From Bodo saltans (Eukaryota; Euglenozoa; Kinetoplastea; Eubodonida; Bodonidae): a stretch of 49,896 bases of DNA. Each line of letters begins with the position of its first letter. The first letter of the stretch is position 1. Shown here piece by piece: positions 19,618-49,129 of this stretch. The stretch covers positions 1-49,896 of the forward strand of contig CYKH01000544.1 in NCBI GenBank assembly GCA_001460835.1, given 5' to 3'. A model generated the notes under the pieces. The model ran no database searches, was not told the DNA's origin, and saw only the letters and a program-made list of their open reading frames with translations. Position numbers and translations under genes: made by a program.

Positions 19618-20970
19618 ATGGCTCTCCCCTGGACGATGTGGGTGGTCTCCAGCATCACTCTTGCAGTATCTGCAGTCTCGTTACCCACAATGTCAAATCA
19701 ACTCGACACGTCGCTTGTGTACGAAGATGAATACATCACAGGGACTCAGATTTTTGATGGATACGCACGAAACGTTTCACTGCTCTATAAAAACTGCACG
19801 TTCGACACTGGCTCGGACTATGGAATTTCTTTTGTACACACCAGCGGCTTCTCGCCTGCCAATGAAGACATTCAGAACACTACAATTGTTTTCGATCATT
19901 GCACGTTCGTGACATCCGTTGCAGCAGTGTATGCATCCAGGGCACACATTTCGCTGCTCCACATCGAATTTGTTTCCTCGCAGCTCCTCGGCGATAATGA
20001 GAGTTCCGATCCATGCGTTGATATCGAGATTGGCGCCATTCAAGCCGAGTACATGAACAACAGTCTCTTCGACCTCCGCGACCTCTCTATTGTGATGACA
20101 AATGCATCATTGACGTCAGCTGCACCGGTCGCATACATTTCAACGAACTCGAGCTTAATTCCAAGTGTCCCCGTCTCATTCATTGACGTGTCGTTTCTCG
20201 CGCAAGATTCATTTCTTAATCCAAATTTTGACCTCATCAATTCCGACTTCAGCATCGTCAACGTGACTCTCCTTCGCGTTACGCTGATTTCGAATCGGCT
20301 GCTTGGTACCTCTTCCGGTTGCAATAACATTACCGTCACCGTCATCGACTCCAACATCACCGAGACGTTCGACACCATCGTCCGTGTTCGTCCAGGGCGT
20401 CATCAGTTATTTCACTTTCACAACTCCAACTTGACTCTATCAGATCAGCGTTATTTCAACGACAGTGGCAGCGTGTTTACTTTTGTTTCAGGTGTGGATG
20501 TGTACGGATGCGCAGCAGTAGCAAATCATCAACTTTTGTGCGAAGGATGGGACTACTCTGTGAGCCCAACATCATCAGTCATCACTCCTTGCTCGTACGA
20601 GCGATTTATTTCAGATTACCCCTGTAGTGGACATTCATTTCATACGTGCAACACTGCTGTTGGGTCATGCACAGCATCCGCTGCCTTCAACACAACGATT
20701 GTTGGTCAGTTGTTGCTGAGCTCTCAAGGAGGCTTTGCCTCAACGCTGCTGAACGCATCGAGACTTGGAGGTGATTGCAGCCTTCAAAGTTTCCGACTGA
20801 TATTGCAGGCGGATGAAAGCGACGTGTTACGGCCATCTTTGCCCCCTGCTCAGGTTGGCTTCGTCGTGTGCAATGCAACTGGTTGCCACAACGATTGTTG
20901 GTCAGTTGTTGCTGAGCTCTCCAGGAGGCTTTGCCTCAACGCTGCTGAACGCATCGAGACTTGGAGGTGA
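19618..20970 (+). CDS. large surface glycoprotein, N-terminal fragment (frame broken)
   Basis: The first ATG gives MALPWTMWVVSSITLAVSAVS, a classical signal peptide. The mature part has many N-x-S/T sites, sparse paired cysteines and short beta-strand repeats, suggesting an extracellular beta-helix-like ectodomain. At 20887 a 196-bp tandem duplication starts. Because 196 is 3n+1, the frame shifts and ends at 20970 with about 27 unrelated residues. The gene continues in the next frame from the second copy. This piece, the next one and the one to 25193 almost certainly form one gene encoding an ectodomain, a mucin-like Ser/Thr stalk and a polytopic membrane region. It resembles the putative membrane-associated proteins abundant in Bodo (recollection, not checked). 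Confidence 0.6.
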   Translation: MALPWTMWVVSSITLAVSAVSLPTMSNQLDTSLVYEDEYITGTQIFDGYARNVSLLYKNCTFDTGSDYGISFVHTSGFSPANEDIQNTTIVFDHCTFVTSVAAVYASRAHISLLHIEFVSSQLLGDNESSDPCVDIEIGAIQAEYMNNSLFDLRDLSIVMTNASLTSAAPVAYISTNSSLIPSVPVSFIDVSFLAQDSFLNPNFDLINSDFSIVNVTLLRVTLISNRLLGTSSGCNNITVTVIDSNITETFDTIVRVRPGRHQLFHFHNSNLTLSDQRYFNDSGSVFTFVSGVDVYGCAAVANHQLLCEGWDYSVSPTSSVITPCSYERFISDYPCSGHSFHTCNTAVGSCTASAAFNTTIVGQLLLSSQGGFASTLLNASRLGGDCSLQSFRLILQADESDVLRPSLPPAQVGFVVCNATGCHNDCWSVVAELSRRLCLNAAERIETWR

Positions 20971-21082
20971 TTGCAGCCTTCATAGTTTCCGACTGATATT
21001 GCAGGCGGATGAAAGCGACGTATTACGGCCATCTTTGCCCCCTGCTCAGGTTGGCTTCGTCGTGTGCAATGCAACTGGTTGC
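20691..21082 (+). repeat. 196-bp tandem direct duplication (two copies)
   Basis: Copy 1 is 20691-20886 and copy 2 is 20887-21082. I count three mismatches (for example CTCAAGG/CTCCAGG). The unit is coding, and the second copy continues in register with downstream sequence. The 3n+1 length breaks the reading frame of the surface glycoprotein gene. It could be a merged-allele assembly error or a true mutation. Confidence 0.9.
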
Positions 21083-21991
21083 TCACCCGAACAGGTGCGC
21101 CGTGGAACCTGCGCTCCGTGCCCTTTATCGACCACCCTAGCATCATGGAATGTGAATGTTACGGCCCAAGGAAATCTGTTTTCATTGGTCAACGAGGAGA
21201 TTTTTTCCAATCTCGATAGCACAACGGTCATCACGCTTTTTATCGAAGCGCAAGATGGTTCGGACGCATTTGACGGCATTGACATCATGGTGCAACTACA
21301 AGCAAGTTGTTATGGTGCTTGTCTTGCGCCGTGCACCACCCGTGATGATATTGAGTTTCGTTTTACCGGCACAACGTTTCTTAATGTGCAGCATGTAGAA
21401 AACACCGAACGGGTCCTGACGCACGTCCAAGGCGCATCGAACGTTCGGTTCGTTTTTGACGGAGCCACCATCTACGGGGGACTTCCCATATGGGTCGATG
21501 ACAGCGTGATAGGAAACGTATCGGTCACTGCAACTTCTGCATCGCTCAACTTCGTCGATGACAGTTTTGTGCAAGTGTCGTCGCTGGCGAGAACTCCTCA
21601 CGGGGTAGTCAACGTCGACATGTCTGACTCAACGCTGCGACTTGAATTAAGTGGCACCACTCTCATTCCAGGAACGTCTCCTGTCAGTAGCGTGGTGCAA
21701 TGGAATCACCAAGGCGATGATGCCGTGTTCCAGATGTCCCTTGTTCGAGTGGAGGTGTTGGTCTCAGATCTACCATCACCGTTGATAGGAGACAAGGCCA
21801 CGTTTTCTCTGCTCTCCACGCAGCACACAGATCTTATTTGGAAGCAAAGCGTTACGCTGACGATGCGGCAGTCGTCGCTAGTGGACGCAGGGTCGATTGG
21901 CAACATCAATCCTGCAGGTGTCACTGTTGTCTGCTTCAACGACTCATCGATCTCTTTTTTTTTTCGCATCGAACGTTCGGTTCGTTTTTGA
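20813..21991 (+). CDS. large surface glycoprotein, middle fragment (frame broken)
   Basis: A fragment of the same gene. The ATG at 20813 lies inside copy 1 of the duplication in the wrong frame. Genuine coding begins with copy 2 at 20887 and reads in register with the N-terminal fragment. It continues the extracellular domain: Cys pairs (GTCAPCPL, CYGACLAPC), NVT/NMS-type sites and beta-rich repeats. It ends at 21989-21991, just after an abrupt run of T (21955-21964) joined to a near copy of 21433-21589. There is no membrane segment in this part. Confidence 0.55.
   Translation: MKATCYGHLCPLLRLASSCAMQLVATTIVGQLLLSSPGGFASTLLNASRLGGDCSLHSFRLILQADESDVLRPSLPPAQVGFVVCNATGCSPEQVRRGTCAPCPLSTTLASWNVNVTAQGNLFSLVNEEIFSNLDSTTVITLFIEAQDGSDAFDGIDIMVQLQASCYGACLAPCTTRDDIEFRFTGTTFLNVQHVENTERVLTHVQGASNVRFVFDGATIYGGLPIWVDDSVIGNVSVTATSASLNFVDDSFVQVSSLARTPHGVVNVDMSDSTLRLELSGTTLIPGTSPVSSVVQWNHQGDDAVFQMSLVRVEVLVSDLPSPLIGDKATFSLLSTQHTDLIWKQSVTLTMRQSSLVDAGSIGNINPAGVTVVCFNDSSISFFFRIERSVRF
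21433..21589 (+). repeat. 157-bp direct repeat, copy 1
   Basis: Almost identical to 21965-22121 (three mismatches seen), 532 bp apart. Both encode the segment SNVRFVFDGATI...IWVDD. It lies inside the surface glycoprotein gene. Confidence 0.88.
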
Positions 21992-22121
21992 CGGAGCCAC
22001 CATCAACGGGGGACTTCCCATATGGGTCGATGACAACGTGATAGGAAACGTATCGGTCACTGCAACCTCTGCATCGCTCAACTTCGTCGATGACAGTTTT
22101 GTGCAAGTGTCGTCGCTGGCG
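21965..22121 (+). repeat. 157-bp direct repeat, copy 2, abutting the gap
   Basis: It begins right after a T-run and ends exactly at the N block. The offset of 532 is again 3n+1, so the copy reads in a new frame. Position at a contig edge suggests a misjoined allele or a collapsed repeat. Confidence 0.88.
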
Positions 22122-25100
22122 NNNNNNNNNNNNNNNNNNNNNNNNNNNNNNNNNNNNNNNNNNNNNNNNNNNNNNNNNNNNNNNNNNNNNNNNNNNNNNN
22201 NNNNNNNNNNNNNNNNNNNNNNNNNNNNNNNNNNNNNNNNNNNNNNNNNNNNNNNNNNNNNNNNNNNNNNNNNNNNNNNNNNNNNNNNNNNNNNNNNNNN
22301 NNNNNNNNNNNNNNNNNNNNNNNNNNNNNNNNNNNNNNNNNNNNNNNNNNNNNNNNNNNNNNNNNNNNNNNNNNNNNNNNNNNNNNNNNNNNNNNNNNNN
22401 NNNNNNNNNNNNNNNNNNNNNATTTTTGCCGATGGTCACTTAGAAGTGTCTGATCTCCCAAGAACAACATTTCCAGCGCCTGGTCGACCGCTCGTCGTCA
22501 ATAGAATTCTCGCTGATGGCTGCGACTTCCTTCCGTGTACAGTGGAGGTTCACTACATACGTATCAACGTAACTGCTTCATGCGTGGCAGAGGCAGCGCT
22601 GTCAGCTAGTGCGATGATCAACTCAACCATCACCATGCACAATGTACTGAATGACCAAGGTGCTGCCATCGTCGTAGGCAACGCCTCCAACTGTGCAGTC
22701 ACTCTCCTATCGTCTTTCTTCTTGCAGCTGCCCAGTGCTCAACTCGCGTCATCAGGGGCCAATTTTGCTCCAGTGTGGATGCGGAATGCTACTGATGTCA
22801 CCGTGTGGTATGGCTGCCTTGACGTTTCCAAGACAGGGCAGTACCTTGTCGCACCGTTCAACACAACTGGTGTCTCCTTTCACCGAACGACAAGCTGTAC
22901 CCCATACTCAAGCGGTTGCAGCCTTGGACCGTCTCTGAGCTCATCGACCTCAAAGCCGCTCAGCGCAACATTTTCCTTTGAACAAACTCGCTCCCTCTTG
23001 TCGGCAACTCCTTCTCTGTCGCTTAGTCATATAACTCGTTCATCCAACACCCAATCCCACGCATCTCGCACGCGCACCTTCTCAAAATCCCCAACGAAGT
23101 CTGAAGATACCATGTCGCGCACCTCACCTCATCATTCCCCAACCGCCACGGCGAGCCACACCACAAAGCTTGCCTTCATTCCAACAGATCTGTTCGCGTC
23201 TGTGGATACGGTTTGCCCTGATGCAGTGATTGCAGTGGGTTTGACCGCTGTCACCATTCCTGTGCAGTACGTCCAAACGCACACGCTGTGGATTCGTTTT
23301 AATGTTTCCGAGGAGTATGCGTCAAGTCTATTCAGCTCTCCCCATGACATGAGTCTCACAGCGCAAGGAGATTCTTTGCTGACGAACACAAAACCTTTGT
23401 TGCAGAATGACGTTGGGAACCGCTGCGTGTGGCTGCGACTCGGGCCTATCGACTATAACCCATATGAGCCTCGTGCATTCGAGTTTGTGGTGGGGCCCAA
23501 TCCCCTCATTGTCAGCCCACTCGTAGGAACCATCAATATCCAACTGATCATCTCGCCTCGCACGACAACGGTTGCCCCTGCAGTGTCCAGTGGCATTGCC
23601 ACTGCGACTGGAGTTGTGTCTTTGATCACAATGAACACCATCACCTCTGGGTCTCAATCACGGGCGCAGATGCTTCTGTCTCTCACTGCCTGTACCTATG
23701 CAGCGGACAACGAGGCGTACAGTTTCCTTGGCATTGGCATCGGAGATGTTGCAGCGTACTACTACCGTGGTGCCATTGTGGGCAACAGTCTGTTGGTACT
23801 CCTGGTGTTGTGTGTGGGGCTGATTGTGATATTTGTGGTGTCGCTGAGCAGTGCTAAGAACAAACTTTCCTTTTGGACCGACGAATCGTTTCAGGCGGCT
23901 GGTGCAAAGCTATTTTCTACGGTGCACGTGCCCGGCCTCATGATGGTGCCCTTGACCTTGCTGCTCCAGCCGACGGTGTCTTCCAGCGTTGCGTTGTTTA
24001 TGGTCGGAGATGGTGACGCCGGCGACATTATCCTTGGAATTGTCGGTGTAGCAATCTGCTTGTGTGCGCTTGCATACGTCTCCTCCACCATTCTCTTTTT
24101 CCGGCCTCCATCCCAGCAACTGTTTGTTGGTGTCCGCCCAACAGGCGCTCCTCTAGACTCAGATGACGAGGAGAAAGGAGGGGTGAAAGGGCAGCCTCAT
24201 CATCGTAATCCTTCTCCTTATTACTCTTCCAGCAGAAGCCGCATGTCCACGATCGTTGACGAATGGATTGTGCCGCCGATCCACTGGGTCACGGTCACCC
24301 CATCGGCGAAGGCATGGAAGCGGCGGCATCTTCAAATGTTCTGTGACAACGATACCGCGTGGTTCACAGCACTGGGCGTGATATCGGACTTTAGTGTCGC
24401 TGTGTTTAACGGCATCGCGACGGGTGGGAACGGAAGTGTCTGTTTGGTCCAGCTTGTCGTGATGACCATCCTGTACGCTGTGCAAGGTGTACTCCTCGTG
24501 TTCAACGCGCCGACCCTTGGGCGCTTGGCGCATGTGCTGATCTCCTTCTCCTGCACCATGTCTCTGTTCTGTGCTGTCCTCATTCTAGCAGCAACAGCAA
24601 CGTCTGATCAAGCCTCCAAGACGGTGTGCATCGATGCAGCAAATATGCTTGGGACCATCATCAACGTGGCAGGGCTAATTCAGAACATGCCCCTGCTAGT
24701 GGAAGCAGGTCTTGGTGTGCCCAGGATGTTGAGGCGGCTGTGGAATGCAAGGAGGACGCTGGAGCGCCAACGTGTGCCACCGATGCTACACGTGATGTCC
24801 CTGAACGACGACATGCCAACGTCGACACCAGATGAGTTGCTGCTATCTCCCCAGCACGGTGTGCACCACAACGAGATGCTAGACACCGAGGACGCTGCGC
24901 TTGAAATGGTAAATCAGAACAGCGCAGCAGGTGGCGCTTCCCCTGTCGTTGAGCAGCTCACCACAACTGAACAAGAAACGCCCGAGGCGGCCCAAGCGCC
25001 TGTGCCACCACCACCAAAACCCTCTACAGAGTACTTCTACAACGAAAGTCTCGCTGGGGGGCTAGGACCAGCGCTGCGTGAAACAGAGAAGGCCAAACAA

Positions 25101-25193
25101 GCGATGGTACTAGGCGACGATGGATTGAATAGTGGATTGGACATGTTGCGCACGATGCGCAGCAACACCGACGACGACGTGATAGAGCTTTAA
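21965..25193 (+). CDS. large surface glycoprotein, C-terminal fragment with membrane domain (contains gap)
   Basis: This frame has no ATG near its start and is the continuation of the same gene. After the gap it contains more Cys/Asn-rich ectodomain, then a Ser/Thr/Pro-rich mucin-like stalk (about 22930-23160), a second folded region, and about seven hydrophobic helices between roughly 23760 and 24710 (for example SLLVLLVLCVGLIVIFVVSL and LVVMTILYAVQGVLLVFNA). A cytosolic tail of about 150 residues ends in DDDVIEL. This gives a surface receptor-like architecture: a heavily glycosylated ectodomain above a multi-pass membrane part. The ligand is unknown. The frame across the 300-N gap is an assumption. 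Confidence 0.6.
22122..22421. other. scaffold gap (300 N) inside a coding region
   Basis: Exactly 300 undetermined bases within the surface glycoprotein gene. True size unknown. It directly follows a duplicated segment, which points to a repeat-related assembly break. Confidence 0.95.
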
Positions 25194-39069: not shown

Positions 39070-39393
39070 ATGTTCCAGCGTCGCATGTTCTGCAGTTCGC
39101 AGATTCCACGAAGCATGTATGCGGCACTTCACATTCAGTCTGCCAAGCAAGCAACCAGTATGCTGCCGTCACTTGTGTCACTGCCGTCGCAAACACGTCT
39201 TATTGCTTCGGGTGTATCTCAAACAGCAATGGAGTCGATCCGTGGGAGTCAGGCGGCCCTCAACACAAATGTTGTGCTGGAGGACTTGATCGCCGTCATG
39301 ATGGCTGAACTAGGCTCATGCGCTTCGCTCTGGTGTAAACGCAATCTATCGTGTTTGGTCCAAGTACCGCGGATTTCAAAGGTGGCGTTGTGA
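39070..39393 (+). CDS. small protein family member 3 (divergent)
   Basis: A 107-residue protein starting MFQRRMFCSSQIPRSMY. Position by position it follows the pattern of the two upstream small genes: MF-x-RR, a Ser-Ser pair, IPR-x-M, then HI-x-S-x-x-QA and LP-x-LV-x-x-x-SQ. Its DNA is clearly diverged, unlike the near-identical first two. The rest is Ala/Leu/Val helix (VVLEDLIAVMMAELG) and a Cys-containing tail. Same inferred presequence, same unknown function. Confidence 0.5.
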   Translation: MFQRRMFCSSQIPRSMYAALHIQSAKQATSMLPSLVSLPSQTRLIASGVSQTAMESIRGSQAALNTNVVLEDLIAVMMAELGSCASLWCKRNLSCLVQVPRISKVAL

Positions 39394-39770
39394 TTTGTTT
39401 TTGAAACCGCACAAGATGTCAATCTCTGGTTGGTGTTGCCCCCCTTTCGTTGTCTGTCGCTCATTTTGAGGCAAGCGCAGAAATCAAACTCCTCTGTTCA
39501 GCAGCTCTTCACTACAACCTCCTTTTCACACAACAAACAAAAGCTCACAAATGATGTGTGACGCCAACACATCTTTCAACATAAGCTGATGGAATGAAAC
39601 AAACAAAACACATCAACAAAAGACGAAGTCAAAAAGAAAAACTCGGTAGGTGCAATGGAAACCTCGTAACTTCAATTGTTTTGTCTGTGTTTGATTCTTC
39701 CGTTTTCTTGATGATTATCGTAAGATGTCGCCTTGTGTTTTATTTTTATTGTCACCCTTTGAGTCAACCC
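39394..39770 (+). other. spacer before the epimerase gene
   Basis: An in-frame ATG at 39594 would extend the epimerase by 59 residues, including a hydrophobic stretch. That stretch is translated pyrimidine tract (CTTGTGTTTTATTTTTATTGTCACCCTTTGAG, AG near 39762), so the short start at 39771 is preferred. Confidence 0.45.
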
Positions 39771-40901
39771 ATGTCCGCTGCAACGTTACCAATTCGCCCT
39801 GGTGGGCCGCCAGTTTTAGTCACCGGTGCTGCCGGTTTTATCGGTTATCACATGACGATAAAACTCAACCAACTTGGCGTCAGTGTCATTGGTTTCGATA
39901 ACGTGAATGACTACTACGAGCAGAAGCTAAAAGAAGACAGACTGGATAAGTTATTTGGGACTGAGAACCGACTTCACGATGTTACGACCACCCCAATTTC
40001 ATCCACCTCCACTAGCTCGTTTGCTGCTACCAAGTCACAGGGGCCCAATCAACTATTCACGTTTATTCGTGCTGAGCTTGAGCAACTCGACGTCCTCCAA
40101 GCGCTTTTTGAGGAGCATACGTTCGAACTAGTGATCCACCTTGCCGCGCAAGCTGGTGTGCGTTACAGTTTGACCAATCCTTTGAGTTATATTCGCTCGA
40201 ACCTCGTCGGTTTTGAACACATTCTCGAGTGTTGCCGGCATCACCATGTCAAGCACCTGACCTACGCTTCTTCCTCCAGTGTTTACGGTGGCAACATGAA
40301 AACTCCTTTCTCGGAGCAAGACAACGTCGACCACCCAGTCTCGCTGTATGCTGCAACAAAGAAATCGAACGAGCTCATGGCGCACGCGTATGCCCACCTC
40401 TTCAATATGCCGTGCACAGGCCTCCGTTTCTTCACTGTGTACGGTCCATACGGACGCCCAGACATGGCCACTGCAATCTTCGCAGGTAACATTCTCAGAG
40501 ACAAACCTATCGATGTGTTCAACGACGGCAAGATGCAGCGTGATTTCACCTATGTGGACGACATCGTTGAGGGTATTTATCGCATTGCAGAGCGTCCCCC
40601 GCAACCGAACCCGCTATGGGACGCCACCAATCCAGATCCCTCCGTCAGCTCCGCACCATACCGCGTCTTGAACATTGGGAACTCTGATCCGGTGGAGCTT
40701 GGCGTATTTATCTCCACGCTGGAACGCGTCCTCGGTAAGGAAGCAGTGAAGAACATGAAACCGATGCAGCCCGGAGACGTGTTGGTCACAAGTGCGGATA
40801 CGAGCATGCTGGAAAGCATCACTGGCTTCGCCCCAAGCACACCGTTGGAGAGGGGGCTCGAATCTTATGTTGCGTGGTATCGCAGCTACTATGGTTTGTG
40901 A
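39771..40901 (+). CDS. UDP-glucuronate 4-epimerase (extended SDR family)
   Basis: A 376-residue enzyme with Rossmann motif GAAGFIG (19-25), substrate/cofactor segments FDNVNDYYEQ and HLAAQAGVRYSL, the YASSSSVYGG segment, catalytic Tyr193-X3-Lys197 (SLYAATKKSNELMAHAY), TGLRFFTVYGPYGRPDMA and RDFTYVDDIVEG. These match UDP-glucuronate 4-epimerases of bacteria (CapI-like) and plants (GAE), which convert UDP-glucuronate to UDP-galacturonate using bound NAD. A low-complexity insert (TTTPISSTSTSS) follows the first third. It lies directly upstream of glucuronokinase. The plant enzymes are Golgi-anchored; here an anchor exists only if the upstream ATG is used. Close similarity to bacterial/plant sequences raises lateral origin as a question. 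Confidence 0.88.
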   Translation: MSAATLPIRPGGPPVLVTGAAGFIGYHMTIKLNQLGVSVIGFDNVNDYYEQKLKEDRLDKLFGTENRLHDVTTTPISSTSTSSFAATKSQGPNQLFTFIRAELEQLDVLQALFEEHTFELVIHLAAQAGVRYSLTNPLSYIRSNLVGFEHILECCRHHHVKHLTYASSSSVYGGNMKTPFSEQDNVDHPVSLYAATKKSNELMAHAYAHLFNMPCTGLRFFTVYGPYGRPDMATAIFAGNILRDKPIDVFNDGKMQRDFTYVDDIVEGIYRIAERPPQPNPLWDATNPDPSVSSAPYRVLNIGNSDPVELGVFISTLERVLGKEAVKNMKPMQPGDVLVTSADTSMLESITGFAPSTPLERGLESYVAWYRSYYGL

Positions 40902-40954
40902 TCAAAAAAAATCATTTGACGGGAGAAAAAATAAGGAAACCGATTCCCCTTTGG

Positions 40955-41017
40955 TTTCTGTTTTTGTTTTTTTCTTTTTTCTTATTTTGCTCTGTTGAAT
41001 TTTCCTTCCCAAATCAG
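40955..41017 (+). promoter_or_regulatory. trans-splice acceptor deciding the glucuronokinase start
   Basis: A 60-base T/C-rich tract ends with TTCCTTCCCAAATCAG, AG 41016-41017. The first in-frame ATG after it is 41085; the upstream TTG of the longest frame (40995) lies inside the tract. Confidence 0.6.
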
Positions 41018-41084
41018 ACTGCAGCACGAAAGAAACAGTCTCGTGTCGAGTCACATCATAGCAAGAAGCAGATCGTATTGCTTG

Positions 41085-43184
41085 ATGCCCGCTATCCTTC
41101 TCTGCACCGGGCTATCTTCGTCACTGCAAAGTGCCATCGATGGTGTCGTTAACGAAATTGCCGGGCCACAGAACCACTTTCGGTACCTATCCCATCCCCT
41201 CCGTAGCGTCCCTCTACCACTCACCCCAGTAGTGGCATTGGGTAACTGTCACTCACTGCTAAGCGGGAATGAAGATGCATTTCTTGCTACCGGGCTCAGT
41301 GTCGTTCACCAGCGCAATCTCTTGGACGAGTGGCTCGACGCTGTCACTACGTTCGTCGCAGGCTCTGGACCGATTATCTTGGTCGTGGATGCCGTGTACT
41401 TCAAGTCATACGAACGGTGGGCAACATCGCGAGGTTTTCCGATGCACGACATCATCTCTAACGGTCGGACTCTAGACACGCAACCTCAAGCCCCAGTGTT
41501 GGACATCGATTTGGCGCTGCAGCACCTAAAGCGCCAAGGCACTTCACCACACACCAAGACACCAACCACGCCGCTTTCCTTTGTACCCACCAGTGGAGAT
41601 GTGACATCACAATGCGAAGAGTATCTCATCGGAATCGTTGGTCAAGGACCCGTTTGGTTTCACGGACCAAAACGATCCGCTGGATCATCCGTTGCTAGCA
41701 TTCTACTCGAAGAAATGAATCGACAACGCGCGGAACGACAAAAGCATGCATCAGTAGAGGCGGTTGTCGTCACAACTGGTGCCGACGAGGGCAAACTCTT
41801 TCTTGTGTCGCCTTCAGCGCTTCAACTCCTCGTTGACTCCGTCGACGCCGTCAACGGAAGCGAGGCCGCACTATCGTCCACAATTGTAGGCTCCTTAACG
41901 AAAGTGCTCAAGAAGGACGATCAAATCGTAGAATTGGCGCTGCTTCCTTCCTCGGCGGTTTCCAACTGCTCCGTGCTAGAAGATTACGTCGGCAGCGAGC
42001 CATCGCTTGAGCACCTTCGAACTTGTGAGCATGCTCGGCGCTCTCGTGGTAGTGAAAGAGTAGGCGTTGCTCGAACGAGGAGCTACGCTCGCGTTGGAGT
42101 GATGGGTAATCCGTCGGATCAACTTCACGGCAAGAGCATGGCCGTATCTATCGAAAACTTTTGGACCGACGTGCATATTTTTGAAAGCCCCTCTGTGCGC
42201 TTTATCCCCAACCCGATTACAGATCCCGTAGAGTTTGGCGGCTTGCAAGATGTGTTTGCCCTCTCTAGCGGAGATGGATATTCTGGAGGGTTGAGATTGG
42301 TGCAAGCAACATGCAAGCGCTTCTTTCAGTATTGCCAGAACAACAACATCTTTGCGAACACCGCCTCATCCACAACCTGGGCGCGCCGAGGCTTCACCAT
42401 CGCTTACGAAACGAATGTCCCTCGTCAAGTCGGTCTTGCTGGAAGTAGCTGTATCGTCACTGCTGTGCTGAAGGCACTGCTGCTCCACTTTGGCATCGTT
42501 GTGCTTCCAGAGGCGGAAGCTCAGGCGCAAAGCGGCACTGGCGTCCCCATTATCGCCAAAGAAGTTCTCCCATCGATCGCGCTAAGCGCCGAGATGGACG
42601 AGCTTGGTATTCATGCTGGCCTCATGGATCGTGTCATTCAAATGTACGGTGGCCTTGTTGCAATGGACTTCACCAACAAAGCTCAGATGGAGTTCAAGGG
42701 CTATGCAACCTATCGATCCCTAGATGCCAGAAGACTGCCCAAATTGCACCTAGCGTACGCAATTGACCCTTCGGACTCAGGCCGCAAGCATGCGACTGTG
42801 AAACAACGGTGGCTGAACGGTGACCAAGAAGTTCATGATGCGGCCAAGACTTGGGCATCGCTTGTAGATGAGCTCCTCGTAAACTTAGAAGGAGATGAAG
42901 GCACCAGCACGGTTTCGACTCCATCAACGCTTGGGACGAAGTTGGGTGAGCTGATGAATAGAAACTTCGACCTCCGCCGGAAACTTTATGGCGATGCGTC
43001 ACTTGGATGGAAGAATTTACGCATGATTGAAATCGCTCGCAGCTTAGGAGCCGCAGCTAAATTCCCAGGCTCCGGTGGTGCGATTTTGATCTACTGTGAT
43101 CCCGAAACTGTCAATACATGGAAGCTGAAGAAAGCAATGTACGCGGAAGGGTTTGTTCTCGTGAGCCTTCACTACCTCCCGTGA
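41085..43184 (+). CDS. glucuronokinase with N-terminal degenerate nucleotidyltransferase domain
   Basis: A 699-residue protein. The C-terminal ~370 residues are a GHMP kinase close to plant glucuronokinase: RVGVMGNPSD (336-345), FWTDVHIFES, DPVEFGGLQDVF, GYSGGLRLVQATCKRF, the ATP loop VPRQVGLAGSS (445-455), ALSAEMDELGIHAGLMDRVI then YGGLVAMDF, and a final SGGAILIY motif. It should phosphorylate D-glucuronate to glucuronate-1-phosphate. The N-terminal part (LLCTGLSSSL, then ILVVDAVYF, KSYERWATSRGFP and NGRTLDT) lines up with the sugar nucleotidyltransferase domain found in some animal-type glucuronokinases. However, the G-x-G-T-R loop and the usual catalytic Lys are not evident, so that domain is probably inactive. 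Next-door epimerase suggests a shared UDP-uronate pathway. Confidence 0.83.
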   Translation: MPAILLCTGLSSSLQSAIDGVVNEIAGPQNHFRYLSHPLRSVPLPLTPVVALGNCHSLLSGNEDAFLATGLSVVHQRNLLDEWLDAVTTFVAGSGPIILVVDAVYFKSYERWATSRGFPMHDIISNGRTLDTQPQAPVLDIDLALQHLKRQGTSPHTKTPTTPLSFVPTSGDVTSQCEEYLIGIVGQGPVWFHGPKRSAGSSVASILLEEMNRQRAERQKHASVEAVVVTTGADEGKLFLVSPSALQLLVDSVDAVNGSEAALSSTIVGSLTKVLKKDDQIVELALLPSSAVSNCSVLEDYVGSEPSLEHLRTCEHARRSRGSERVGVARTRSYARVGVMGNPSDQLHGKSMAVSIENFWTDVHIFESPSVRFIPNPITDPVEFGGLQDVFALSSGDGYSGGLRLVQATCKRFFQYCQNNNIFANTASSTTWARRGFTIAYETNVPRQVGLAGSSCIVTAVLKALLLHFGIVVLPEAEAQAQSGTGVPIIAKEVLPSIALSAEMDELGIHAGLMDRVIQMYGGLVAMDFTNKAQMEFKGYATYRSLDARRLPKLHLAYAIDPSDSGRKHATVKQRWLNGDQEVHDAAKTWASLVDELLVNLEGDEGTSTVSTPSTLGTKLGELMNRNFDLRRKLYGDASLGWKNLRMIEIARSLGAAAKFPGSGGAILIYCDPETVNTWKLKKAMYAEGFVLVSLHYLP

Positions 43185-46923: not shown

Positions 46924-48270
46924 ATGCTTCCCACTGGAAACGCTCCCACCTGGATCCCACCCCAGCAGCATCATCAGTATCAGCAGCCCTCTGCTCTTCC
47001 TCTTCACGCTCAGGCGTTATTTCACCAACCACCGCCGCCCCATAACATGATGCTGCATCATCCCCAGCAGCAGCAGCAGCAGCAACAGATGCAGCAGGCT
47101 GTTCAGTTTCATCACGTGCTTTCATCGCCACACCAATCGACCACAACGTTTGTCCCCTCACATGACCCTAACACGTATCTCTTTGCCTCTGCTGGATCTC
47201 AAGTCTCGAGTGAGCAAACCAGCTACATATCGATGAGCGGCACAGCTGGAACGAGTGGCGGCGGCGATGCGACGTACTTCTTTGCACCTCAACATCAGAG
47301 CGCGAACAGCATCAGCCAGGGCTCACTCCACGGTGGACAACCTTCGTTCATGATGGCCCCTCCCCCACAATCATCAGGTGTCACTCTTTCGTCTCTCCTT
47401 GGACAACCACCCAGTTCGCCTGCGCTTGCGTTTCCACCCCCGCAACAACAACAAGTGAATGCTAACGCAATGCCACGCGGTAGCTACGTAATTGTGCAAC
47501 AACTTCCGCCACATCAGCAGCAGTTGCAACAAGCCCCACCCCCACCATCGCCACCAGTCATGCAGTACAGCGGCACCCCACCGCAGCATGCAGCAGCAGG
47601 CGGCCCGGCGTCGCCAACTCAATACATCTTCCACAATGCGCAAAACTCAGGATCGGGGTCTGGATTCCTCGTTGCTGACGGAAACGTGAGTGGACATTTG
47701 CAACAACTCTCGCAGTCCCAATCCCCGTATCAACTCTCACCGCTGCATCAACAGCCACAACATCAGCATGCTGTGCCGACTGTTCAATATGTCTCCGCGT
47801 CACCGTTTCCTCCCACCGCCCAACAGAATGCCATGCAAGGAGGGATGTTTTCAGTTCCTCAGCTGCAGCAGGGCGGCCCTCAGGGTTTGATGATGCCCCC
47901 TCCTCCACCGCCCTATGCTGCGCAGCAGAGCCATCCATTTATGTATCACGCGACCTCCACTGACGGGAATCCTATTCAAGGGCAACTATCTGCTGGCGGA
48001 CCTCGAGCAGCCACTGCTGAAGTCAAGAAAACAAAGCGCTCCAAGAAGCGTAAGGATGTTGTGCTAACCCCACGGAGCCAAGCCCAGAAAGAGAAGGAAG
48101 CAAAGGAGCGTGAAGAAGCAACAAGCCCCACCCCCACCCTCGCCACCAGTCATGCAGTACAGCGGCACCCCACCGCAGCACGCAGCAGCAGGCGGCCCGG
48201 CGTCGCCAACTCAATACATCTTCCACAATGCGCAAAACTCAGGATCGGGGTCTGGATTCCTCGTTGCTGA
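46924..48270 (+). CDS. Q/P-rich RNA-binding protein, N-terminal part (frame broken)
   Basis: From ATG 46924 (MLPTGNAPTW) the protein is a prion-like, disordered sequence very rich in Gln, Pro, His, Ser and Ala, ending in a basic segment (KKTKRSKKRKDVVLTPRSQ). At 48118 a 592-bp tandem copy of 47526-48117 begins. Since 592 is 3n+1, the frame shifts and ends at 48270 with about 50 unrelated residues. Without the extra copy the frame would run into the RRM domain ending at 49129, so this and the next feature are one gene. Low-complexity N-terminus plus one RRM suggests a granule-associated post-transcriptional regulator. Confidence 0.6.
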   Translation: MLPTGNAPTWIPPQQHHQYQQPSALPLHAQALFHQPPPPHNMMLHHPQQQQQQQQMQQAVQFHHVLSSPHQSTTTFVPSHDPNTYLFASAGSQVSSEQTSYISMSGTAGTSGGGDATYFFAPQHQSANSISQGSLHGGQPSFMMAPPPQSSGVTLSSLLGQPPSSPALAFPPPQQQQVNANAMPRGSYVIVQQLPPHQQQLQQAPPPPSPPVMQYSGTPPQHAAAGGPASPTQYIFHNAQNSGSGSGFLVADGNVSGHLQQLSQSQSPYQLSPLHQQPQHQHAVPTVQYVSASPFPPTAQQNAMQGGMFSVPQLQQGGPQGLMMPPPPPPYAAQQSHPFMYHATSTDGNPIQGQLSAGGPRAATAEVKKTKRSKKRKDVVLTPRSQAQKEKEAKEREEATSPTPTLATSHAVQRHPTAARSSRRPGVANSIHLPQCAKLRIGVWIPRC

Positions 48271-48709
48271 CGGAAACGTGAGTGGACATTTGCAACAACT
48301 CTCGCAGTCCCAATCCCCGTATCAACTCTCACCGCTGCATCAACAGCCACAACATCAGCATGCTGTGCCGACTGTTCAATATGTCTCCGCGTCACCGTTT
48401 CCTCCCACCGCCCAACAGAATGCCATGCAAGGAGGGATGTTTTCAGTTCCTCAGATGCAGCAGGGCGGCCCTCAGGGTTTGATGATGCCCCCTCCTCCAC
48501 CTCCCTACGCTGCGCAGCAGAGCCATCCATTTATGTATCACGCGACCTCCACTGACGGGAATCCTATTCAAGGGCAACTATCTGCTGGCGGTCCACGAGC
48601 AGTCACCGCTGACGTCAAGAAAACAAAGCGCTCCAAGAAGCGTAAGGATGTTGTACTAACCCCACGGAGCCAAGCCCAGAAAGAGAAGGAAGCAAAGGAG
48701 CGTGAAGAA
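47526..48709 (+). repeat. 592-bp tandem direct duplication (two copies)
   Basis: Copy 1 is 47526-48117 and copy 2 is 48118-48709, about 98% identical (roughly ten substitutions, mostly silent, for example CTGCAG/ATGCAG). No spacer between copies. It breaks the RRM-protein frame. Confidence 0.92.
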
Positions 48710-49129
48710 GAGAAAGCCGGCCGAGGCGGGAAACCTTTTTCTGAAGAACCGTTTGAACTTGACAGCACGAAAAAGCAGCTCATTGTGAATTTTCTTTCGC
48801 ATGCAGTCACGGAAACAGAATTTACACAAATATTCTCGCAATTCGGCGTTATCTCAGCTGCTCGCATCATCTACGACAAGCACACGAACCGCTCTAAAGG
48901 TTATGGGTTCGTGTATTTCAAGAGCGGTGACGATGCAATCAAAGCCATTCTTGACCTGAACGGCATGGAAGTGCACTCAAAGTTTATTAAAGTCAGCTAT
49001 GCAACGCCGCAGCGCCCCACACCGCCAAATACGCCCCGTGGCGACGGAGCTGATGCAAGTATTACTGGAGCAGAGGATGATCATACGGATAGTAGCGATG
49101 AGGGATCGAACGACGAGCTTGAGCACTAA
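48118..49129 (+). CDS. single-RRM RNA-binding protein, C-terminal part
   Basis: The frame through copy 2 has no ATG of its own and leads into one RNA recognition motif of about 75 residues. RNP2 is LIVNFL (near 48779) and RNP1 is KGYGFVYF (48896-48919). The loop between reads FSQFGVISAARIIYDKHTNR. This resembles the single-RRM UBP/RBP proteins of trypanosomes, which bind U-rich 3' UTRs and control mRNA stability. The tail is Thr/Pro-rich then acidic (DDHTDSSDEGSNDELEH). It is the C-terminal part of the gene starting at 46924. Confidence 0.75.

Follow-up and report, generated by a model that had tools for sequence, protein, structure and literature searches.

Adjacent genes for a UDP-glucuronate 4-epimerase-family protein and a two-domain glucuronokinase-type protein in Bodo saltans, and a candidate route of glucuronate activation

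A stretch of 49,896 nucleotides from the kinetoplastid Bodo saltans (assembly GCA_001460835.1, contig CYKH01000544.1, forward strand; hereafter the window) was analysed around two neighbouring genes, P0001 and P0002. An original prediction made from the sequence had named them as UDP-glucuronate 4-epimerase and glucuronokinase, adjacent on one strand and carrying strong family motifs. Both frames are open, 183 bases apart on the same strand, and Pfam recognised Epimerase (PF01370, E 3.1e-53) in P0001 and GHMP_kinases_N (PF00288, E 2.5e-7) in P0002 (Table 1). P0002 also has an N-terminal domain of ~325 residues that the prediction had passed over. Read together with genes elsewhere in the genome, the best-supported route would lead from glucuronate through glucuronate-1-phosphate to UDP-glucuronate and on to UDP-galacturonate and UDP-xylose.

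Table 1. Features of the two genes (positions in the window; residues numbered within each protein; aa, amino acids)
Feature	Window position	Strand	Residues	Remarks
P0001 gene	39771-40901	+		UDP-glucuronate 4-epimerase-family protein, 376 aa; open frame
NAD-binding glycine motif of P0001			19-25	kept
Low-complexity insertion in P0001	39954-40055	+	near 62-95	~30 residues; not in 5u4q
YxxxK of P0001			Tyr193/Lys197	align with 6zl6 residues 149/153, counted by hand
Active-site Thr of P0001			Thr222	kept relative to 6zl6
Arg of P0001			Arg229	aligns with 6zl6 residue 185, counted by hand
Polypyrimidine tract and AG between the genes	40944-41010, AG end 41017	+		likely trans-splice acceptor for P0002, from sequence
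P0002 gene	41085-43184	+		699 aa; open frame; N-terminal domain and glucuronokinase-type GHMP kinase
N-terminal domain of P0002	41085-42059	+	~1-325	degenerate nucleotidyltransferase-like
GHMP kinase of P0002	42060-43184	+	~326-699	glucuronokinase-type
Kinase motifs of P0002			341, 446, 507, 662	GNPSD, PRQVGLAGSS, LGIHAGLMDRV and GSGGA, respectively

The best solved relative of P0001 was PDB 5u4q (404 bits), which we take to be of the GlaKP type, followed by 6zl6 (152.8 bits), presumably BcUGAepi of Bacillus cereus. As in bacterial UDP-glucuronate 4-epimerases, the Tyr/Lys pair, Thr and Arg are kept with respect to 6zl6; unlike them, P0001 belongs to a eukaryotic host and contains the low-complexity insertion, placed from an unaligned stretch (query 61 to 96 against 5u4q chain 52 to 57). 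Arg185 of BcUGAepi holds the carboxylate of UDP-galacturonate (PMC12338863), and Klebsiella GlaKP is a UDP-galacturonate epimerase according to a title cited in PMC7984243. A start at an in-frame ATG upstream, at 39594 (435 aa), is possible, but 5u4q begins at about the point given by 39771. Read from there, P0001 has its N-terminus close to the NAD fold; tomato epimerases differ in carrying one or two membrane-spanning segments (PMC6032376).

Among the best 25 of 32 NCBIfam matches, no family reached its cut-off for P0001. The genome holds no second close copy, three paralogue matches showing 29-32% identity, and has its own GalE (TIGR01179, 409.9 bits, above cut-off). A tree of 34 rows was built with 14 of 217 plasmid records, 17 matches from bacterial genomes (drawn from 38 of the 80 kinase-bearing genomes described below) and two of the three paralogues, the short one on contig C368 being omitted. 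A 21-row clade (support 100/98) united P0001 with 20 bacterial proteins that share 47-61% identity with it, and the genome's own GalE and UDP-xylose synthase (UXS) fell outside, on very long branches. P0001 therefore groups with UDP-glucuronate 4-epimerase-like proteins and not with GalE or UXS; since it joins an unresolved fork within the clade, no donor can be named. From these relatives and the conserved residues, we infer that P0001 is a UDP-glucuronate 4-epimerase.

The C-terminal half of P0002 shows the GHMP fold and three GHMP motifs. It was 45% identical to an approximate Arabidopsis glucuronokinase sequence, and 16-19% identical to heptose kinases in structural alignments, the rows of which span P0002 residues 279-699 and so tell nothing of the N-terminal domain. 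By profile, the nearest solved families were heptose and mevalonate kinases; a single-sequence search of PDB with P0002 returned nothing up to E 1. The zebrafish glucuronokinase accepted glucuronate as its sole substrate among nine sugars (PMC3938481). Judged by family and fold, the kinase of P0002 would phosphorylate free D-glucuronate at C1. The Pfam and 5u4q matches lie well beyond what chance would give, and both family names originally given are supported.

In its own genome P0002 matched itself alone, up to E 1. Viral contigs held no relative by single protein or by profile, phages none, and plasmids a single record, from Rufibacter, annotated merely 'GHMP kinase'. Of 360 bacterial kinase relatives, 80 were kept, and alignments took in 41 and 22 of these 80. 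In the kinase tree, which carries a long-branch warning for L018, for P0002 and for the approximate plant sequence, P0002 was nested in no single bacterial group and no donor emerged.

For the N-terminal domain of P0002, Pfam recognised nothing, the single line at E <=10 being unrelated (E 0.26). The zebrafish protein GKUP (DrGKUP, 619 aa) has a ~260-residue nucleotidyltransferase domain followed by a glucuronokinase (PMC3938481), and P0002 resembles it in joining an N-terminal nucleotidyltransferase-like domain and a C-terminal GHMP glucuronokinase in one polypeptide. An approximate sequence for a piece of the zebrafish domain was used as bait for bacterial relatives. Within the phylum to which L061, a Verrucomicrobia record, belongs, 15 of 288 genomes yielded proteins of the GKUP-domain type; Verrucomicrobium and Methylacidiphilum are among the bacteria named in the zebrafish study (PMC3938481). 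A profile of these 15 relatives matched the N-terminal part of P0002 with 8.1 bits (residues 73-149), a score reached by none of 2000 residue shuffles (842 scored, best 5.7), by none of 300 block shuffles (112 scored, best 2.6) and by no other of the 33 scored window segments (next 0.5). This indicates homology to the GKUP and bacterial nucleotidyltransferase domains, though weakly: with a GalU-type profile, which did not match the real stretch, shuffles of the same stretch reached 8.6 bits, so 8 bits are unimpressive alone, and single bacterial sequences aligned at E 0.05 or worse. A GalU-type identity was rejected, as a profile of 45 GalU-type neighbours gave no match.

The signature-loop Arg/Lys is lost from this domain and the catalytic residues of a pyrophosphorylase were not found, in which it differs from DrGKUP; AGYATRL, PK.LL, AGDN and EKP, motifs of the bacterial proteins, are lacking, and P0002 keeps the residue at 15 of the 48 columns that are nearly invariant, in an alignment that is unreliable past residue 150. 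The domain thus reads as a probable eroded pyrophosphorylase. This reading stays at the level of sequence because the predicted fold of the domain alone was uninformative (mean predicted local distance difference test score, pLDDT, 36.6).

The original prediction had the two enzymes leading from glucuronate to UDP-galacturonate, which the family assignments support; it had left out the pyrophosphorylase step between them. A candidate for that step lies on contig C79, where a gene scored 393 bits to UDP-sugar pyrophosphorylase (USP) 3ogz over residues 8-504; two further UDPGP-family genes were found on contigs C613 (435 bits) and C260 (142.5 bits). We propose that the P0002 kinase converts D-glucuronate to glucuronate-1-phosphate, that the C79 enzyme, rather than the eroded N-terminal domain, would use UTP to make UDP-glucuronate from it, and that P0001, with bound NAD+, would invert C4 to give UDP-galacturonate. 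A second user of UDP-glucuronate can be seen on contig C420 (L009:1288-3276), where a 663-aa frame encodes a UDP-xylose synthase followed by an adenosine kinase (356 bits to 4gll, UDP-glucuronic acid decarboxylase 1, and 393 bits to adenosine kinase 2xtb); it may form a side branch by decarboxylating UDP-glucuronate to UDP-xylose. The matches cover almost the whole of each part of the C420 frame, which unexpectedly fuses a sugar-nucleotide enzyme to one of purine salvage.

The glucuronate itself probably comes from food or medium. Salvage is favoured as the source because searches of the genome detected no UDP-glucose dehydrogenase and no myo-inositol oxygenase (MIOX). For the dehydrogenase, two domain models found nothing, with 13 of 14 controls positive, all of them prokaryotes. 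Applied to 38 bacterial genomes, the MIOX search exceeded its cut-off in 4 and is therefore able to find the family. Salvage of uronic acids, also part of the original prediction, is to that extent favoured, and the glucuronate-activation route is perhaps the sole source of UDP-glucuronate. The absence on which a salvage-only supply depends is unsafe, since the assembly is probably incomplete.

Several results weigh against this reading. The searched assembly comprises 29.3 Mb in 934 contigs, and the Bodo saltans genome is given as 39.9 Mb (PMC4728078), so about a quarter of it is probably missing. The genome's GHMP genes number four with P0002; the best NCBIfam matches of the other three were galactokinase and phosphomevalonate kinase (both below cut-off) and diphosphomevalonate decarboxylase (above), so that mevalonate kinase, which Leishmania major has (2hfs), was not among these four. 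With this gap and the small assembly, any single absence could be an assembly gap. Many beta-glucuronidases belong to glycoside hydrolase family 2 (GH2), a possible means of glucuronate release, and no GH2 glycosidase was found in the genome (0/1; 5 of 14 controls positive). As for the enzymes themselves, no row of the epimerase tree has measured activity, the depositors of 5u4q name their protein dTDP-glucose 4,6-dehydratase, and glucuronate is unmentioned in PMC4722067 and PMC12584669, consulted for a use of glucuronate-1-phosphate by kinetoplastid USP. Glucuronate and UDP are likewise unmentioned in PMC7052976.

A galactokinase-like gene on contig C260 (L001:785-2502) consists of two frames sharing a near-identical stretch (MATFVTAALIEAS...), which suggests that a short segment is duplicated, either in the genome itself or through assembly.

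The pair was considered as a cluster in its own right, since functional clustering in a kinetoplastid gene series had been put forward as unusual. Two genes of the pathway are indeed adjacent; they are just two of four, the USP (C79) and UXS (C420) genes being on other contigs, and their contact may be chance. With ~14,000 genes, a number derived from ~24 genes per window counted by eye, the chance of adjacency is 1.4e-4 for the given pair and 8.5e-4 if any two of the four pathway genes are allowed. These odds are suggestive only, because the pathway was assigned after the pair itself had drawn attention.

Among 81 bacterial kinase loci, within the available flanks (many of them short), no close epimerase homologue stood beside the kinase, and two matches of 22-25% identity were all that appeared; against these loci, the kinase-epimerase neighbourhood was seen at the Bodo saltans locus only. 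On this evidence a bacterial operon origin of the pair was ruled against. A GalU-type pyrophosphorylase was next to the kinase at 46 of the 81 loci, or at 45 of the 73 with at least 500 bases downstream. The eight loci grouping closest to P0002 (L011-L018) include six with room downstream, none of which shows a GalU-type gene beside the kinase; the sequences of the other two, L012 and L015, stop too early to judge. The tie between kinase and pyrophosphorylase is widespread, not universal.

These bacterial kinase/GalU-type pairs (L010-L090, e.g. L010:9998-11933) occur in Bacteroidota and several other phyla and are candidate glucuronate-activation operons. The scanned kinases of L012, L031 and L048 reach no NCBIfam cut-off, and a literature search on glucuronokinase, bacteria and GHMP kinase gave no title on a bacterial glucuronokinase.

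A two-step activation of glucuronate by P0002 and P0001, with the C79 USP between them and uptake as the source, is the explanation we favour, with somewhat better than even confidence. The main competing account supposes that a UDP-glucose dehydrogenase exists and was lost from the assembly, so that P0001 would act mainly on UDP-glucuronate made de novo, the kinase would be a minor recycler and the neighbours would be loosely linked. The probable incompleteness of the assembly (29.3 against 39.9 Mb), the unseen mevalonate kinase and the making of UDP-glucuronate by Trypanosoma cruzi (PMC5853035) speak for it, but two independent domain models were negative where nearly all controls were positive, and the searches for other UDP-sugar genes succeeded (three of the UDPGP family, USP among them, as well as GalE and UXS); we regard it as a serious possibility, though the less probable one. 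Slightly more tentative is the strongest form of the favoured explanation, in which uptake would be obligatory for UDP-glucuronate, the UDP-galacturonate and UDP-xylose needed for glycans would hang on the P0002 kinase and USP, and the redundant fused pyrophosphorylase would have decayed in place as a frozen intermediate. That P0002 is instead truly bifunctional, with an N-terminal domain that still makes UDP-glucuronate, an activity claimed for the zebrafish fusion at a low rate, is unlikely. The domain order of zebrafish GKUP (PMC3938481) and a frame that is still open are consistent with such activity; the lack of Pfam recognition and the lost Arg/Lys, AGDN and most invariant columns (with alignment unreliable past residue 150) argue against it, and even the full zebrafish protein yielded little product over 70 h (PMC3938481).

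It is slightly less likely still that the kinase acts on another sugar acid or on a heptose. GHMP kinases often differ in substrate, and the solved families nearest by profile are those of heptose and mevalonate kinases, but identity to the approximate Arabidopsis glucuronokinase sequence is far above that to the heptose kinases, and the zebrafish enzyme was selective for glucuronate (PMC3938481). Whether the neighbourhood is accidental we judge an even matter, and an accident would be compatible with the favoured explanation, which does not need the genes to touch. The other pathway genes are on other contigs, the low adjacency odds belong to a pair singled out beforehand, and the large frames of the window run in one direction, so touching gives little shared control; set against this is that P0001 and P0002 would act close together in one route. 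Joint acquisition of the pair from bacteria, which had been suggested along with loss in parasitism, is very improbable. Both families are common in bacteria, but no close epimerase was found at the 81 kinase loci (many with short flanks), neither gene nests in one bacterial group or has a donor in its tree, and the fusion layout of P0002 is reported for eukaryotes (PMC3938481). Five other genes of the window span 0.511-0.547 in GC content at third codon positions (GC3); P0002, at 0.543, falls within this range and P0001, at 0.589, a little above it.

As in the plant myo-inositol oxygenation pathway and the plant UDP-glucuronate 4-epimerases, a kinase, a USP and an epimerase would all be present in Bodo saltans, unlike that pathway without a detected MIOX; the kinase also differs from the plant glucuronokinase by its extra domain, absent in plants (PMC3938481). 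In contrast to zebrafish, Bodo saltans has a separate USP, an enzyme seemingly absent from animals and present in trypanosomes (PMC3938481). The logic of a sugar-1-kinase and a USP of the same family is that of galactose salvage in Leishmania major (putative galactokinase and USP, PMC4722067), from which the proposed route differs in using a uronic acid and then a UDP-uronate epimerase, whose product does not figure among those given for Leishmania in PMC4631452. UDP-glucuronate is not among the nucleotide sugars listed for Leishmania there either, and UDP-glucuronate and UDP-xylose are called exclusive to T. cruzi (PMC5853035). This agrees with the earlier suggestion that neither step belongs to the described metabolism of trypanosomatid parasites, UDP-glucuronate being missing or rare there.

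No report of a UDP-glucuronate 4-epimerase in kinetoplastids was found in openly licensed literature, and annotation elsewhere is possible; the enzymes are known ones, in a lineage for which no report was found in that literature. New points would be the degenerate fusion domain, a USP able to replace it and the possible lack of a non-uptake route to UDP-glucuronate. A salvage-only supply, if true, would be an uncommon arrangement and one open to direct experiment; for Bodo saltans, a CRISPR protocol has been reported (PMC9544060). If true, the route would also be a kinetoplastid branch of uronic-acid glycan precursors, reportedly not made by Leishmania and a candidate marker of loss toward parasitism, and the decayed fusion domain would be a case of a broader enzyme of the same cell taking over one step of a two-step enzyme.

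P0001 and P0002 are part of one series of same-strand genes. A polypyrimidine tract followed by AG is the usual appearance of a kinetoplastid trans-splice acceptor, and one lies between the two genes (Table 1), leaving a 67-nt, ATG-free leader from the AG at 41017 to the start of P0002; each gene probably gives its own mRNA by trans-splicing. KMP11, encoded elsewhere in the genome (E 1.1e-51), supports a kinetoplastid origin. The GC content of the window is 50.4%, and that of Bodo saltans is given as 50.9% (PMC4728078).

Elsewhere in the window, a 107-aa frame at 39070-39393 lies between a 574-aa gene and the epimerase gene, whose upstream neighbour may therefore be this small gene. Successive frames at 19618-25193, rich in Asn-x-Ser/Thr and with internal repeats, look like surface glycoproteins by eye only. 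A near-identical direct duplication (47560-48127 and 48152-48718) covers two glutamine/proline-rich frames, the second of which continues into an apparent RNA-binding domain, again as judged by eye.

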